From: Variovorax paradoxus | Lineage (GTDB): Bacteria > Pseudomonadota > Gammaproteobacteria > Burkholderiales > Burkholderiaceae_C | Assembly: GCF_024734665.1 (NCBI RefSeq) | Contig: NZ_CP102931.1 | Coordinates: forward strand, 556,001 to 620,000 | DNA length: 64,000 nucleotides | Reading direction: 5' to 3' | Shown here: in pieces, positions 5,670 through 50,308 of the stretch | Layout of the letters: each line of letters begins with the position of its first letter | How positions within the stretch are numbered: the first letter of the stretch is position 1 | Program-made: the position numbers and the translations under genes | The notes under the pieces: model-generated | What the model was told of the DNA's origin: nothing | What the model saw: only the letters and a program-made list of their open reading frames with translations | Database searches by the model: none

Positions 5670-7178
5670 TCAACCACCCGCGGGCAACTTGCCCAATTCT
5701 TCGGAAACGAGCCGCACGATCAGCTTGTCCAGCGTCTGCACCGAGTAGTTGCCGACGTCGTGCACCGTCTGCGTTCCCGGGCCGCTCGCCGGGTTGGTCG
5801 CTTCCCTGTAGGTCAGGAACACGAAGCGTCCGCCGGTGTACTGCGCGATCTGGCGCTGGATGTATTCGCCCTGCTTGTCGAGCCCCGAGGCGCCCACGCT
5901 CAACACCTTGATGCCCTTGCCCAGCGCGGCGACCATGTCGTCGTCGTAATGCGGGCCGCCGTAGTCGAGGTGCGGCGGAGCGTCGGCCAGCAGCACCACG
6001 AGGCGCGTGGTGCCGTTGCCGCGCCAGCTCATCTTGTGGATGGTTTCGTTCAGGGCCTCGTTCATCGCCTCGGGGTAGTCGCCGCCGCCTGCAGCACGCA
6101 GCGCATCGAGCACGCCCTGGAAGGCGTTGAGGTCGTTGGTGAAGTCGTGGCGGCGCACGAGAAATTCGTCGGTGCGGTCGCGATACGCCACCAGGCCAAA
6201 GCAGGTGTCGGGGCGGCTCGGCAGTTTGGCGACCTGGTCGGCGATCGTGCGCAGGGTGGTCTTGAGCTTCGCGATCTCGTCGTCCATCGAGCCGGTGGCA
6301 TCGATCAGGAAGACCAGGTCGAGCCGGGCGCGCGCGGGCACGGCGCCCTTGCCGTCGAGTACGACGTCGATGGCGTTCTTCTGGCCACGCTGCAGGAAGG
6401 CGGTGCTCTGGCGGCCGTTCTTGCGCACGGTCACTTCGTACACCGGGCTCTGCGCCTTGTCGAAGGCGTTCGGATGCAGCCATGCGCGCCCGCCCGCATC
6501 GGTGCGGGCCCACATGGCGGCGCCGTTCGCGGCCTGCACGGCCACTTCGGCATCGGGCACGACTGCGCCGCGCGCGTCGCGCACCTGGAGCAGGTAGCGC
6601 GCGCTGATGTCGCGCTCGCGGTGAACGACCTGGGTGCGGCCGCGAAAGGCCAGGTATTCGCTGAAGTCGGCGTTGTCGTCGACCATGCCGGCGGTGACGG
6701 GCTCGTTGGCGGGGCGCGGGGCCTGGGCTGGCGGCTGGAGGCCGCCGCTTATGCGTGCCGCGGGGGCTGCCGGTGTAGCGGGTGCCGGTGGAACTTCCGC
6801 GATGGCGGCGTCGGCGCGGGCCTCCGCTGCGGGAGCCGGCATGGATTTCGCCGCCGAAACCGAAGGCGCCACAGGGCGACGCAGCGAGTAGTCCTTCAAC
6901 GCATCGGTGCCCGCGGGTTCGCGCCGGAATTCGGAAACGCGCGCCATGCCCGGTGTCTCGTAGGTCTGGACCGGCCTCGCGCAGTGCGTGGCCGACGGCG
7001 CCTCGAAGTTCGGCACCGTCTGCGCTACCTGCAAGCGGCTGTCGGGTGCGGGCGTGGGCCAGCGCGTGGCGCCGGCAACGGCAGGGGGCTCGGTGGCGCC
7101 GCAGGCGGTCAGGAGCAGTTGGGCGCACAGCAGCACGACGAGCGGGCGGCGAAACCTGGGAACGAAAGCTTGGGTCAT
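5670..7178 (-). CDS. Von Willebrand factor A domain lipoprotein
   Basis: 502 residues. The N terminus has a lipoprotein signal ending LLLTAC-G. Residues of roughly 20-190 are Ala/Pro-rich and probably disordered. A carboxypeptidase-regulatory-like stretch follows (YLLQVRDARGAVVPDAEVAV). The C-terminal half is a vWA domain with the metal-ion-dependent adhesion site DATGSM (in LVFLIDATGSMDDEI), followed by LADAPPHLDYGG. This predicts a cell-envelope protein that binds a partner through a metal. ATG 7178 has GGAG upstream and opens on the signal peptide; the longer frame is not needed. It is divergent from an ECF sigma factor gene, which suggests one envelope-sensing unit. Confidence 0.82.
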   Translation of the reverse strand: MTQAFVPRFRRPLVVLLCAQLLLTACGATEPPAVAGATRWPTPAPDSRLQVAQTVPNFEAPSATHCARPVQTYETPGMARVSEFRREPAGTDALKDYSLRRPVAPSVSAAKSMPAPAAEARADAAIAEVPPAPATPAAPAARISGGLQPPAQAPRPANEPVTAGMVDDNADFSEYLAFRGRTQVVHRERDISARYLLQVRDARGAVVPDAEVAVQAANGAAMWARTDAGGRAWLHPNAFDKAQSPVYEVTVRKNGRQSTAFLQRGQKNAIDVVLDGKGAVPARARLDLVFLIDATGSMDDEIAKLKTTLRTIADQVAKLPSRPDTCFGLVAYRDRTDEFLVRRHDFTNDLNAFQGVLDALRAAGGGDYPEAMNEALNETIHKMSWRGNGTTRLVVLLADAPPHLDYGGPHYDDDMVAALGKGIKVLSVGASGLDKQGEYIQRQIAQYTGGRFVFLTYREATNPASGPGTQTVHDVGNYSVQTLDKLIVRLVSEELGKLPAGG

Positions 7179-7314
7179 GAAAGCACTCCGGGTTGTTGGG
7201 TGCAGGCTGATACGGCCGGCCACCGCCAGCGGGGTTGAGCCTCGTCGACTTTTTTTGCCACCCCGAACCCCGGTGCGGTCCGCCGCCCGTACAAGCTGGG
7301 GTGAAAATCCTTCG

Positions 7315-7980
7315 ATGTCCGCGCTTCCCCGCGCCCCTTCCGCCAAGAACGCCCCCGAGCGCCAGGCCATGCCCGACGACCAGTTGATGCTGGCCTACGC
7401 ACAAGGCGACGCCGCCGCGTTCGACGTGCTCTACGCGCGCCACGAAGGCGGACTGTTCCGCTTCGTCAAGCGGCTGCTGGGCGCGCGGCTCGTGGCGCAG
7501 GCCGACGAGGTGTTCCAGGACACGTGGGTGCGGATCATCTCGGCGCGCGACAGCTTCTCGCCACAGGGCGCGACGTGGCGCACCTGGGCCTTCACCATTG
7601 CGCACAACCTGGCGATGGACCGGCTGCGCGTGAGCGGGCGCGAAGTGACGCTCGATGCGCACCCGGACGACGACAGCGACCCCGTGCCCACGCTCGACCG
7701 CGGCGTGCGCGGGGCCGTCGATGCGGCGGCGCATCCGTCGGCCGAAGAGCTGGCGTTCTGGCGCGCCGCGGGTCGTCGCTTGCTGGCCTGCCTCGATGAA
7801 CTGCCGGCTGAGCAGCGAGCCGCGTTCCTGCTGCACCATGAGGACGGCCTGACCGTCGAGGCGCTGGCCGCGAGCCTGGAGATTGGCTTCGAGACCGTGC
7901 GCAGCCGCCTGCGCTATGGCTTGCAAAAACTGCGCGGCTGCATGGAGCGCTATCTGTCGGTGCTGGAGCAACGGGCATGA
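7315..7980 (+). CDS. ECF-type RNA polymerase sigma factor
   Basis: 221 residues. Region 2 is clear (DDQLMLAYAQGDAAAFDVLYARHEGGLFRFVKRLL, then ADEVFQDTWVRIISARDSF and TWAFTIAHNLAMDRLR), and region 4 is a helix-turn-helix (LPAEQRAAFLLHHEDGLTVEALAASLEIGFETVRSRLRYGLQKLR). Such factors direct RNA polymerase to stress or envelope genes and are usually held by a partner anti-sigma protein. The next gene starts inside its stop codon (ATGA) and encodes a single-pass membrane protein, the expected place for the partner. Start ATG 7315 chosen; ATG 7369 is an alternative. Confidence 0.9.
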   Translation: MSALPRAPSAKNAPERQAMPDDQLMLAYAQGDAAAFDVLYARHEGGLFRFVKRLLGARLVAQADEVFQDTWVRIISARDSFSPQGATWRTWAFTIAHNLAMDRLRVSGREVTLDAHPDDDSDPVPTLDRGVRGAVDAAAHPSAEELAFWRAAGRRLLACLDELPAEQRAAFLLHHEDGLTVEALAASLEIGFETVRSRLRYGLQKLRGCMERYLSVLEQRA

Positions 7981-9224
7981 GCGGCAACAACACCGAATTC
8001 GACGACGACAACGGCGATCTGCGCGACCCCGCGCTGCGCCGCGCGCTGGACCATGCACCCGACAGCGAGGCAACGCCCGATCCGCGCACGCGCGCCGCGA
8101 TCCTGAAGATGGCGCACAACCTGGCTCCTGCGTCGGTGACAGCGAGCCCTGCCGCCAATAGCGCGAGCGCCGCATCGTGGTGGCGACGCCTTTTCGGCGG
8201 TGGCGGTGAGCCGCGTGCGCGCATGCCGTGGAACGCGGCTTTCGCGACGGTGCTGGTGGCTGGCTTCGTGGCGGTGCTGTGGCATCGCGAGCCAGTGCCT
8301 GATGTGCGACTCGATGGTGAAGCGCGTGTGGGCGGGGCGACTGCGCAAGCGCCGGCGCCGGTTGCACCACCTGCACCGGCACCAGCTCAATCGGCCGCGG
8401 AGGTTGCGACTTCAGCCGAAGCACCGGCGGCCGCCGCTGCGCCGCCGCCAGCCGTCGCAAAAGCGCCCGCAGCACCTGCAGCCGAGCAACGCGCCAAGGC
8501 CCCGGTCGCGCGCGACTCTTCTTCCCCCAAGAAGGCCGCTGATGCGGCGAGTGCAGATGCCCCCCAGCGAGCTGCGCCGCAGCCATCTCTCAAGCAGGCA
8601 GCCCCTGCGCCCGCCGCGCCTGTGCCGGCCGCTCCCGCCGAGCCGGCCGTGCCTTCTACGCCGCCTGCCGTCGTGGCCGAGCAATCCGCACCCGCGCCCG
8701 TCGTTCGCGATGAACGCCGCGAAGCGCGCGTGGAAAACGAACGGCGAAGTGCTTATGCGGCAGGAGCGCCCGCAGCGGCAGCACCACCGCCACCAGCCGC
8801 CGCGCCCGCGAACCAGGACAACGCCAGCGCTGAACTTTCCGGCGGACTGAGTTCGACCGCGCCTGGCGCTGCCGCCAAGGCCATGACAAGGTCTCGGAGC
8901 GCGGCAACGTCCTTCTCCGCACTCGAGCGATGGACGTCTTTCAACTTCACGCGTTCAGGCGCCAGCGTGCGCCACGAGCGCGGCGACATCGAAGGCCTGC
9001 CGGCGCTCGTGAGCACCGTGGCGCGTTCGGCCACGACGCCCGATGAACCACTCGCCGCACCGGTCGAGGCGCGGCTTGAGCTGTACCGAGGCAATGCGCT
9101 GCTCGCCGTGCTGGAAATCGCCGGCGGCCAGGTGCGCTGGACATCGCAGCCCGGCGGCGCGGCTCTCGTCGGCACGCCGCCGGCGCAGGCGCTCGACGCG
9201 CTGCGCTCGCTGCTTACGCGCTGA
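7977..9224 (+). CDS. Ala/Pro-rich single-pass membrane protein, putative anti-sigma factor
   Basis: 415 residues overlapping the sigma factor gene by 4 nt. Residues 1-75 are an acidic to neutral cytoplasmic part with no zinc-finger Cys/His set, followed by one membrane segment (AAFATVLVAGFVAVLW, about 84-99). Residues 110-290 are almost only Ala, Pro and charged residues and should be extended in the periplasm. The last 110 residues are a more ordinary folded stretch (FSALERWTSFNFTRSGASVRHE onward). Translational coupling and topology fit an anti-sigma factor, but no known anti-sigma domain is recognised. It ends 5 bp before the convergent enoyl-CoA hydratase gene. Confidence 0.7.
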   Translation: MSGNNTEFDDDNGDLRDPALRRALDHAPDSEATPDPRTRAAILKMAHNLAPASVTASPAANSASAASWWRRLFGGGGEPRARMPWNAAFATVLVAGFVAVLWHREPVPDVRLDGEARVGGATAQAPAPVAPPAPAPAQSAAEVATSAEAPAAAAAPPPAVAKAPAAPAAEQRAKAPVARDSSSPKKAADAASADAPQRAAPQPSLKQAAPAPAAPVPAAPAEPAVPSTPPAVVAEQSAPAPVVRDERREARVENERRSAYAAGAPAAAAPPPPAAAPANQDNASAELSGGLSSTAPGAAAKAMTRSRSAATSFSALERWTSFNFTRSGASVRHERGDIEGLPALVSTVARSATTPDEPLAAPVEARLELYRGNALLAVLEIAGGQVRWTSQPGGAALVGTPPAQALDALRSLLTR

Positions 9225-46693: not shown

Positions 46694-46726
46694 AGTCAAA
46701 AAAAAGCGCTCCTCGAGGGAGCGCTT
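46694..46726 (-). terminator. Intrinsic terminator for leftward transcription
   Basis: Arms AAGCGCTCC (46704-46712) and GGAGCGCTT (46718-46726) close a 5-nt loop. A run of eight T follows only on the minus strand (complement of 46698-46705), so it terminates the leftward repeat-protein gene, whose stop is 147 nt upstream. It could still act weakly after plsC. Confidence 0.8.
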
Positions 46727-46873: not shown

Positions 46874-49800
46874 TCAGCCCAGCAGGCCGTGCAGGATGTT
46901 GGTGACCGGGCTCACCACGTGGCTCACCGTCTGCTCGACCTGGCTGGTGATCGGCGTCACCACTTCGGTCAGGCCCGAGCCGACGGCATGGCCCGCGCCT
47001 TCGACCACGCTGGCCACCGTGTCGACCACCGGCGCCACGACACCCGTGGCCCCGGCCAGGATGTCCGTTGCCGGAGCCGCGGCGTGGGAGACCGTGCTGC
47101 CCGCGGTCTCGACTGCCGGAGCGACTGCGTCGCCCGCCGGCTGCAGGACGTTGGCCACGGCGCCGTCGCCGCCCAGTGCGCCGAGCAGACTGCCGACGAG
47201 ACCGTCCGCGCCCAGCAAGCCGCCGACCAGGCCGTCGCCGCCCAGGAGGTTGCCCACGATGCCGTCTTCGCCGAGTACGCCGCCGAGCAGGCCGCCACCG
47301 CTGCCACTGCCGCCGCCAAGTACGCCGCCAAGGAGGCCATCGTCACCCAGGACACCGCCCAGGAGACCGCCGTCGCCGCCGGTCACGCCGCCGAGCACGC
47401 CACCCAGCAGGCCGTCGTCACCCAGGACACCGCCCAGGAGACCGCCGTCGCCGCCGGTCACACCGCCGAGTACGCCACCCAGCAGGCCGTCGTCGCCCAA
47501 GACACCGCCAAGGAGGCCACCGTCACCGCCGAGTACGCCGCCCAGCAGACCGCCTTCGCCCAAGACGCCACCGAGGAGGCCACCGTCGCCGCTGAGTACG
47601 CCACCCAACAGGCCGTCGTCACCAAGGACACCGCCGAGGAGACCACCGTCACCACCGAGTACGCCGCCCAGCAGACCGCCTTCGCCCAGGACACCGCCGA
47701 GGAGACCGCCGTCGCCGCCGAGCACTCCGCCCAGCAGGCCGCCATCACCCAGGACCCCGCCGAGGAGGCCGCCATCGCTGCCAAGCAGACCGCCCAACAG
47801 ACCACCGTCGCCCAGCACGCCACCGAGCAAGCCGCCATCACCGCCCAGCAGGCTGCCGAGCGGGCCTTCGGCGCCGAGAAGGCCGTCGTCGGCCAGAACA
47901 CCGCCCAGCAGGCCGTCGTCACCGAGAAGGCCGCCAAGCAAGCCGTTATCGCCCAGCACGCCGCTGAGCAGGCCGCCATCTCCTCCGAGCAAACCGGCCA
48001 GGGGTGTCTCGCTCAGCAGGTCGCCGACCACGCCGTCGGGTCCGAGCAGACTGTCGACCAGCCCGCCTCCGCCGAGCAGGCCGCCGGTGAGGCCGTCGCT
48101 GCCCAGCAAGCCGGCGAGCGAGCCGTCGCCGCCGAGCACGCCGCCCAACGGGCCATCGTCGCCGAGGAGGCCGCCAACACCACCGAGCACGCCGCCAAGC
48201 AAGCCACCGTCGCCGCCGAGCAGGCCACCCAGCAGACCGTCGTCACCCAGCACGCCGCCGAGCAGGCCGCCGTCGCCGCCGAGTACGCCGCCAAGCAGGC
48301 CATCATCGCCCAGGACGCCGCCGAGGAGACCACCGTCGCCGCCGAGCAGGCCACCCAGCAGACCGTCGTCACCCAGCACGCCGCCGAGGAGGCCGCTGTC
48401 ACCGCCGAGCAGGCCACCCAACAGGCCGTTGTCACCCAGGACACCACCGAGCAGACCGCCGTCACCTCCAAGCAGACCGCCAAGGAGCCCGTCATCGCCC
48501 AGCAGTTGCCCGATCAGACCGTCTTCGCCGAGCACGTTGCCCAGCAGGCTGCCGTCGCCCAGCAGGCCTTCGAGCACCTGTCCGACCACGCCGTCGGTGC
48601 CGACCAGTTCGTCCACGAGGCCGTCGATGCCAAGGCCGGTGGTCACGCCGCCGAGCAGGCCTTCGCTGCCGAGCACGTTTTCGAGGATGTTGCTCAACGC
48701 ATCGGTCAGGTAGTCGACCTGGCCGATCAGCGACCCGACGAGCGCGTCTGTCAGGCCATCGCCCAGCAGGCCGTCCACCACGGGGGTGAGCACGCCGCCG
48801 ATGTTGACGGCCAGGTTGTCGACGGTGTTGTCCAGCGGATCGAAAGCGTTCGGGTCGTCCGGCCTGAACTCGTTGCCCGCGATCGGCGAGAGCACGTCGT
48901 CCAGCAGATCCGTGAGGCCGTCGGCCGCGGGCATCAGCGATGCCAATGTGCCGGAGGAACTGGCGGCGACGCTTCTTGCCGCGGCGGCGCTGCCACCTCC
49001 GAGGCCGAGGACGTTGTCCAGGGAGCCGAGCAGATGGCCGGCGAGGCTGTCGCCTGGATCGAGCAGGTGGTCTGCATCAGCGTCTGCATCGGCGTCCGCG
49101 TCCGCGTCGGCATCAGCGTCCGCATCGGCATCGGCATCGGCGTCTGCATCGGCGTCTGCATCCGCATCCGCATCCGCATCCGCATCCGCATCCGCATCCG
49201 CATCAGCGTCAGCGTCAGCGTCAGCGTCAGCGTCAGCATCACCGTCCGCATCCGAGTCTGCATCTGCATCCGCATCTGCGTCGGCATCGCTGTCGCCAAC
49301 ACCCGGAACGAAGAACGGAACCGCGCCGCCGTCGCTGCCGCCGCCACCGCTCAGCGCCGCGCCGAGCGCGACGGCACCCAGTGCGCCGAGCGCGAATTCA
49401 CCCAGGCCGATGCCGCTGCCGGCGGCGGTCTTCTTGCTCACCGCAAGCGCTGCGGCTTCCGCGTCGCTGTCGGGCGAAGTCACTTCCAGGTCGCCCGAGG
49501 CCACGTCTACATTCACCTGCTCGAGGCCGCTGGCCAGCTTGGTCGTGCTGATGGTGGCGTCGGTGCCGCCCGTGAAGACGCCGGACAGCGGCGCCTTGTT
49601 GGTGGCCGATCCGGGAAAGAGAACGTTGGCGTGGCCGTCCTGCGGAACGATCACGCGGTCGCCGGCCATCAGCGCCTGGCTGCCGTCGACGGGAATCGAG
49701 ACGCCGTCGCGCATGAGGACCGTGCCGGGCGTGGCATTCGAAAGCGATCCGATGCCGGCCGGTGCCGCGGGCTGAACTGCGGCGGCGCCAGTCCCCATGG

Positions 49801-49900
49801 GGGCAATCGGCTTCACTGTCGCCTGGGCGATGACCACCGGCGCAGCACCGTTGTCGGCGCCTCCGGCGATCGAAGAAATCGATGCATTGGCATCCGTCAT
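46874..49900 (-). CDS. Giant-repeat surface protein candidate with Asp-Ala linker and Gly-Leu repeats
   Basis: 1008 residues, with GAGGAG 7 nt before the ATG. Residues 1-50 are Ala-rich; 55-130 ([31 protein letters not shown]) resemble the retention module of LapA-like adhesins, which hold the protein in its outer-membrane exporter. A Gly/Ala hydrophobic stretch follows ([17 protein letters not shown], about 158-174). Residues ~203-276 are almost pure Asp-Ala alternation. Residues ~433-910 are 10-11-residue repeats of type [21 protein letters not shown]. The C terminus (~915-1008) is Val/Thr/Ala-rich and helical in look, without RTX nonapeptides. There is no Sec signal peptide. Type I secretion or a collagen-like bacterial surface class are options; function unknown. 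Confidence 0.8.
47170..48600. repeat. Minisatellite-like repeat tract coding Gly-Leu-rich units
   Basis: About 1.4 kb of imperfect tandem repeats inside the 1008-residue gene. The common period is 30-33 bp, paired into a 63-bp doublet (21 residues). Units near 47300-47700 are more alike than those near 48500, and two copies carry the insert [11 protein letters not shown] in a row. Antisense frames stay open throughout because of composition. Confidence 0.85.
49071..49293. repeat. Hexanucleotide repeat coding Asp-Ala
   Basis: More than 30 degenerate 6-bp units (GATGCG, GACGCT, GACGCC and similar on the coding strand) encode DADADA with rare S or G. Change in copy number would keep the frame and only alter linker length. 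Confidence 0.9.
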
Positions 49901-50308
49901 GGCAGTCTCCTCGGTGGTGGGACTTACTGACGGGGCAACTTGCGTGCCGCATCTTCGTGATGCATCGAGCGCGCAGGCGCCGAACGTGCAAGCTATTGAT
50001 TCATATGAATTTTTTGCCGGATCGGTGCCGCGACGGGTGTCGGCGAAAGCCCTTTGCTGAGCGCTCTTCGGCGCTTGTTACGTAGCGTTGTTACGCGCTG
50101 GGGTCGTAACGAATGCTCGCGTAATGGCAGGTGGCCGGGTTGCTTGCGGGTCCGGCTCATGCAAAGCCAATGCACCCGCCGAAGGCTTCGGCTGTGGATT
50201 GTGCTACCCGACCGGATCACACTGGAGATGCGCATGGGCGTGGCGCATTTCTTCACCATACGCTGCCGCGCCTCGTGAGTTCGGGCATCGATAACTAGCG
50301 CACACCGG
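49901..50308. promoter_or_regulatory. Upstream region of the repeat-protein gene
   Basis: 408 bp without a convincing gene. It holds an AT-rich palindrome ATTCATATGAAT (49999-50010), about 100 bp before the repeat-protein start, and two direct copies of TTGTTACG (50075-50082 and 50088-50095, 13 bp apart) with an inverted CGTAAC at 50105-50110. The repeat copies look like a two-site regulator target. Confidence 0.35.

Follow-up and report, generated by a model that had tools for sequence, protein, structure and literature searches.

The locus considered here raises the question of how a long Gly-rich repeat protein, devoid of any recognizable Sec signal and encoded away from any secretion genes, would leave the cell of Variovorax paradoxus, and what it would become once outside. 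The window, i.e., the whole stretch of DNA that was analysed, comprises 64,000 nucleotides (positions 556001-620000) of a single-contig genome of 7.29 Mb. In a plasmid collection, its nearest DNA relatives belong to Variovorax. The original prediction, made from the letters alone, had recognized in it a protein of Gly-Leu-Asp repeats with a retention-module-like N terminus, as known from the LapA/BapA adhesins, and had taken the combination for a possible new class of surface or biofilm polymer. The reading preferred here, to which a probability of roughly 0.7 can be attached, is that of a type I-secreted, channel-anchored surface fibre exported in trans. The features on which the discussion relies are the following:

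46874..49900, minus strand: Gly-Leu-Asp repeat open reading frame of 1008 residues, an orphan member of a type I secretion-linked gene family
49934..49949, minus strand: sigma-54-like (-24/-12) element CGGCAC-N5-TTGCC, starting 49 bp ahead of the ATG
49907..49912, minus strand: ribosome-binding site GAGGAG, read directly, six bases ahead of the ATG
residues 1-50: Ala/Pro-rich start of the protein
49481..49750, minus strand (residues 51-140): N-terminal beta domain of predicted retention-module-like fold (AlphaFold2 and Foldseek)
49343..49414, minus strand (residues 163-186): conserved hydrophobic Gly/Ala/Leu segment, from the alignment of 18 Variovorax N termini
49070..49294, minus strand (residues 203-277): Asp-Ala linker, delimited by composition, a putative tether in an outer-membrane channel
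48569..49069, minus strand (residues 278-444): conserved pre-repeat region, LLDPGD ... DPNxFDPxDN ... QVDYLTD, from alignment
47180..48568, minus strand (residues 445-907): Gly/Leu/Asp repeat array of 10/11-residue units (21-residue doublet), from autocorrelation and tandem repeat finder
46877..47179, minus strand (residues 908-1008): Val/Thr/Ala-rich tail ending [11 protein letters not shown], a candidate uncleaved export signal
46698..46726, minus strand: terminator-like hairpin followed by a T run, between the repeat gene and plsC, read by eye from the sequence

The open reading frame at 46874-49900 represents a genuine gene that has been conserved, and the 1008-residue frame initially proposed is thereby borne out. 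The minus-strand frame was chosen because of homology, the repeat array being also open in other frames as large ORFs. An artefact of a low-complexity frame is ruled out by the recurrence of the N domain, which 52 of the 101 Variovorax genomes carry within an open frame (26 of those 52 more than once), and by its dN/dS, which over 74 codons amounts to 0.19-0.29 when five close orphan copies are taken for comparison and to 0.19-0.46 across all ten copies compared. In addition, the gene possesses a good ribosome-binding site.

The protein consists of successive regions of distinct composition, most of which had been correctly perceived from the letters, apart from small differences in their limits. 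Inspection by eye agrees that no Sec signal is present. The pattern GTVLMRDG...[10 protein letters not shown] corresponds to residues 59-89, and the Asp-Ala linker, first given as 74 residues, counts 75 (38 D, 34 A, 2 S and 1 G). The hydrophobic segment 163-186 occurs in a more diverged form in an alignment of 28 rows, and falls in a low-confidence part of the AlphaFold2 model. Neither the whole protein nor two long relatives gave any Pfam match, and none was found for residues 279-408 taken separately. NCBIfam matches to Sdr/Clf adhesins and to TolA were discarded, being far under the cut-offs and covering the Asp/Ala linker.

The N-terminal domain occupies a central position in the argument. 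An AlphaFold2 model built from 27 sequences predicts a beta domain at about residues 51-140 (pLDDT 84-96), the remainder of the 200 residues being of low confidence. Among 350,542 PDB chains, Foldseek ranked first the entry 5ix9, a 'Cell surface anchoring domain' (probability 0.99, TM-score 0.66 on the target, rmsd 2.4, 67 columns, E 0.37), none of the 266 matches to the model reaching E < 0.001. Since 5ix9 is also found by a profile built from 17 LapA retention modules that had been collected by means of NF033682 (E 1.7e-34), the modelled fold of the N domain resembles that of a bona fide retention module. The domain looks like a retention module by fold, not by sequence. Profile searches against the retention-module and FecR-like families were carried out and returned nothing: neither NF033682 nor FecR was matched when the whole protein and 28 N domains were scanned with Pfam and NCBIfam, and hhalign aligned the N domain with the LapA modules at a probability of 1.9%, so that sequence membership in the LapA retention modules has to be rejected. 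Similarly, the N-domain profile retrieved nothing below E 0.2 from the PDB sequences. Weak matches occurred among the 28 N domains, to SiiEA, from a BapA-related adhesin (4 domains, best E 0.016), Cupin_3 (6, best 0.005), RibLong (4) and TrkA_C (3). The single sub-cut-off NF033682 match in the genome (E 8e-6) concerns a protein other than that of the window. The retention-module guess consequently holds as far as the fold and the genetic association of the family with type I genes are concerned, but fails at the level of sequence.

What retention modules do, and which consensus LapG recognizes, is dealt with in the available part of PMC13090378. In the window protein, as in three other rows of the 18 aligned N termini, the motif TAAG can be seen by eye, and no DP stands ahead of it in the window protein; some AAG, including LAAG, VAAG and KAAG, occurs in 13 of the 18 rows and none in the other 5. 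The LapG family (PF06035) gave no match in the genome at E <= 0.01, a search which a diverged protease could escape and which, as a control, detected the family in Caulobacter vibrioides. LapG-controlled release thus appears unlikely, and because no protease of this family was found in the genome, the window protein would probably be held constitutively or freed by a protease other than LapG. The same result speaks to some extent for a fully released type I matrix polymer, the N domain of which would serve in targeting or bind a chaperone while the array assembles in the extracellular matrix: in a genome where no LapG family protease was found the classic hold-and-release circuit is not evident, and the resemblance to retention modules does not reach significance by sequence. 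Such a released polymer is nevertheless rather unlikely in view of the match of the N-domain fold to a cell-surface anchoring domain, of the long Asp/Ala or Asp/Ser linker, which is expected of a channel-spanning tether, and of the Pal-like lipoprotein found in the linked cluster described below.

The array itself, initially estimated at about 480 residues, covers about 463 residues, including 204 G, 135 L, 50 D and 35 V. Autocorrelation peaks occur at lags of 10, 11, 21 and 42 residues, and the tandem repeat finder reports periods of 63 and 126 bp among others. The structure of the repeats, the prediction of which had been suggested as a check, was modelled on residues 279-1008; the model suggests that each 10/11-residue unit forms one short helix and one turn, at the low confidence indicated by a mean pLDDT of 48.6. 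It also renders as helical the Val/Thr/Ala-rich tail, which was indeed found at residues 908-1008. The Gly-rich repeats, the type I linkage of the family and the GPT triplets that follow the N domain in one relative from another genus (L103) recall a collagen-like or a classical RTX adhesin. For the window protein this assignment is extremely improbable, as neither repeats nor domains correspond: bacterial collagen-like proteins have Gly-rich tandem repeats in common with it, but its own repeats are not G-x-y, the longest strict run being of 5 triplets; GGxGxDxUx nonapeptides are absent (one is present in the paralogue discussed hereafter), and Pfam recognizes nothing. The G-x-y run and the nonapeptide count rule out canonical collagen and RTX, in accordance with the initial description.

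The C-terminus had been described as showing no evident secretion signal, a statement weakened by the observation that the terminal LHGLLG is exactly conserved in 40 of the 45 Variovorax members, a set in which two members (L012 and L080) are identical in length and ends, probably representing the same plasmid, and two others (L010 and L011) are near-identical. The ends of the relatives outside Variovorax are unlike those of the LHGLLG family. Cysteine is absent in 42 of the 45 members. From this conservation, we infer that the LHGLLG-ending tail could act as an uncleaved export signal.

The information on the export route lies outside the window. No type I secretion genes flank the window gene, and the initial remark that secretion genes are missing nearby is correct for its immediate neighbourhood; a complete type I set occurs, however, 3' of a paralogue in the same genome. 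The earlier reader missed these genes because they lie beyond the window, and the argument drawn from their absence therefore falls. The paralogue, a 1511-residue ORF at G000:C1:678841-683376, 73 kb from the window gene, shows the same layout and the same C-terminus as the window protein, with 81% identity to it over residues 1-277. It is followed on the same strand by genes for a Pal-like lipoprotein (which passes TIGR02802), a GH/MurF-like protein, an ABC protein, an HlyD protein (which passes TIGR01843) and a TolC protein, with a convergent gene for a sigma-54 activator. The ABC and TolC proteins have NCBIfam type I models as their best matches, with scores under the cut-offs. The ABC/HlyD/TolC genes stand about 82 kb from the window gene.

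This arrangement recurs throughout the genus. The repeat gene is linked to the cluster in 24 of 40 Variovorax regions, which are not a random sample, the first 20 having been picked for long ORFs, whereas in the other 16 no such link is seen over the 16-20 kb read; for three of the linked regions (L077, L083 and L085) the sequence read stops inside HlyD or TolC. All 25 linked Variovorax loci (the paralogue locus and the 24 regions) contain the Pal-like gene, and none of the 16 unlinked regions does. These 16 regions belong to 15 genomes, every one of which contains the exporter ATPase. Linkage was also observed in other genera (L118, L119, L122, L123, L124, L223 and, for the exporter only, L222). 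Taking the 101 Variovorax genomes together, the exporter ATPase (E <= 1e-100) is found in 51, the repeat gene in 52 and both in 50, a co-occurrence with a Fisher p of 3e-25 when the relatedness of the genomes is ignored. In the sole ATPase-only genome (G061), the repeat gene is cut at a contig end. The repeat gene is present with no ATPase match in a fragmented genome (G099), and in another (G031) it stands at its usual place with no cluster within 16 kb and an ATPase relative elsewhere of only 33% identity. Outside Variovorax, an ATPase relative of 56-74% identity occurs in all ten N-domain carriers of the family sample, although two of the ten ATPase genes look damaged, one by a single in-frame stop (G116) and the other by its division into two frames (G179). 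In one region the 3' end of the repeat gene (L085:5652-8390) lies in a different frame from its relatives and looks broken or mis-assembled.

The orphan position of the window gene invites the suspicion that its product is not exported at all and represents a duplicate that is decaying or stays inside the cell, kept at the inner membrane by segment 163-186, which is membrane-like by eye. No secretion genes accompany the gene, and the genome G031, with no cluster within the 16 kb read, keeps a repeat gene (L220, about 6100-8200). The protein encoded there lacks both the acidic linker and the pre-repeat region, through what may be a natural loss or an assembly collapse, and this would rather fit a loss of function following the loss of the exporter. 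Taking further into account that unlinked copies recur in 15 genomes, retain the promoter element and in most cases the C-terminus, and have an N domain under purifying selection, a non-exported orphan is quite improbable, and export in trans of a functional fibre by the apparatus encoded next to the paralogue is preferred.

The element CGGCAC-N5-TTGCC ahead of the gene is one which we take to be sigma-54-like, according to the consensus of such promoters. The pattern [CT]GGCAC-N5-TTGC occurs upstream of 44 of the 45 Variovorax family genes, starting 46-52 bp before the start codon, and the exception (L081) carries GGCAT. In the window, GGCAC-N5-TTGC is found only once on both strands; the chance expectation, estimated for one strand from all the loci read, family promoters included, is 0.008 per 250 bp. 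A stricter derived pattern has three matches in the 7.29 Mb genome, namely both family genes, by construction, and one intragenic site, and a reversed control pattern has none in the whole genome. The intragenic match (L219, G000:C1:1139177) is located inside a long frame that looks FHA-like by eye, and is probably due to chance. In the other genera, a looser pattern was found within 250 bp upstream of 7 of 17 starts, i.e., 7 of 7 outside and 0 of 10 inside a genus with many copies per genome. The activator adjoins the exporter in 21 of the 24 linked regions (in the remaining three the sequence read stops short of it), and is closest to the PDB entry 7vbs (E 1.5e-186). We infer from these associations that the family genes would be controlled by sigma-54 and the neighbouring activator. 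By analogy with regulators such as BerB of Burkholderia cenocepacia, as described in the available part of PMC5552954, a link of this activator to c-di-GMP may be guessed at.

Other observations concern the surroundings of the cluster. The GH/MurF-like fusion gene (L009:14089-17205, i.e., G000:C1:684089-687205) has a MurF-like C-terminal half. The first 550 residues or so of its product, for which the glycosidase label relies on weak GH88/GH76 matches, are more widely kept, several loci matching that part only, and many carrier genomes encode relatives of this N-terminal part, with about 50-56% identity, in further long ORFs. A locus resembling tad/flp pilus genes by eye adjoins the exporter cluster in L013:8000-20000; in V. 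paradoxus EPS, the tad locus matters for surface motility, according to the available part of PMC7494200. Finally, an open frame of 2733 residues (G000:C1:4206066-4207955) shows two HCBP_related (PF06594) matches above the cut-off, and perhaps encodes a separate RTX-type substrate of type I secretion.

The distribution of the N domain extends beyond the genus. It was found in at least 13 of the 250 sampled genomes of the family to which the window belongs, in at least 9 of 141 genera, that of the window included, and in at least 3 of the 399 sampled genomes of the order (two genomes of the same genus and a third with a weak, partial match), these counts being lower bounds with up to 12 or 8 candidates scored per genome. 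The named carriers are Variovorax, Xenophilus, Xylophilus, Hydrogenophaga and Comamonas, and one other genus contains up to eight copies per genome. In this multi-copy genus (L103, L120, L121 and L125-L131), a common N domain is followed by different C-terminal parts, among them collagen-like GPT triplets and linkers rich in Pro or made of Thr-Gly. In many members of the family the N domain is followed by a long linker of Asp/Ala or Asp/Ser.

The mechanism proposed for the window protein would operate as follows. The orphan gene would be switched on from the same type of promoter as the paralogue, and its product, with the uncleaved C-terminus serving as export signal, would rely in trans on the ABC/HlyD/TolC exporter whose genes lie 3' of the paralogue. 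The N-terminal beta domain would fold in the periplasm into a plug that the TolC-like channel would not let through, the channel itself would be occupied by the hydrophobic segment together with the Asp/Ala linker of 75 residues, and the Gly-Leu-Asp array and the tail would be displayed outside the cell. The export route appears well supported by the comparative evidence. Retention by a plug is suggested by the fold and the linker, and a surface location with a role in biofilms would follow from this scheme. Of the surface or biofilm polymer first imagined, it is thus the export that has become plausible, the polymer itself being a conjecture.

With respect to known systems, the LapA/BapA adhesins (NF033682 retention_LapA; 5ix9) come closest, by the lack of a Sec signal (by eye), the predicted 5ix9-like N-terminal beta fold, the flexible linker, the long repetitive passenger and the linkage of the family to ABC/HlyD/TolC genes. 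In contrast to these adhesins, the window protein has no NF033682 match, [T/A/P]AAG is exact in only 4 of the 18 N termini, no LapG family member was found in the genome, and the passenger is made of Gly-Leu-Asp instead of RTX repeats. The orphan position of the copy, from which export in trans is deduced, the Pal-like and GH/MurF-like partners and the sigma-54-like element are further differences. The DDxP proteins of Variovorax and other bacteria are also modular repeat proteins, mostly encoded contiguously with type I genes and often devoid of recognized retention modules, according to the available part of PMC7730722. Their repeats, compared here by their description in that part of the source, consist of 136-215 or 243-304 residues ending in DDxP versus the 10/11-residue Gly/Leu/Asp units of the window protein, and RTX clusters are reported there for two Variovorax examples. 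A literature search retrieved no paper recognized as describing the Gly-Leu-Asp repeat family, and the term 'type I secretion' is absent from the main text, as far as available, of two papers on V. paradoxus EPS, which deal with the genes for swarming and biofilm and with the transcriptome.

It is tempting to extend these results to a surface polymer system peculiar to a single bacterial family, in which one type I channel would serve two separately placed fibre genes under a dedicated sigma-54 promoter, a sequence-novel plug would act independently of LapG, Asp-Gly turns would perform an RTX-like folding with calcium, and the Pal-like and GH/MurF-like partners would attach either channel or fibre to the peptidoglycan. 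As a whole, this extended scheme is doubtful, if conceivable, and the association of a GH/MurF-like gene that travels with an adhesin exporter is unexplained. Owing to its clear promoter element, exporter and set of partners, the family is directly amenable to testing by gene removal. If the preferred reading is true, the type I adhesins that plug their own channel would reach beyond the retention modules recognizable by sequence and beyond the RTX passengers, and perhaps beyond the control of LapG too, in a genus associated with plants and soil.
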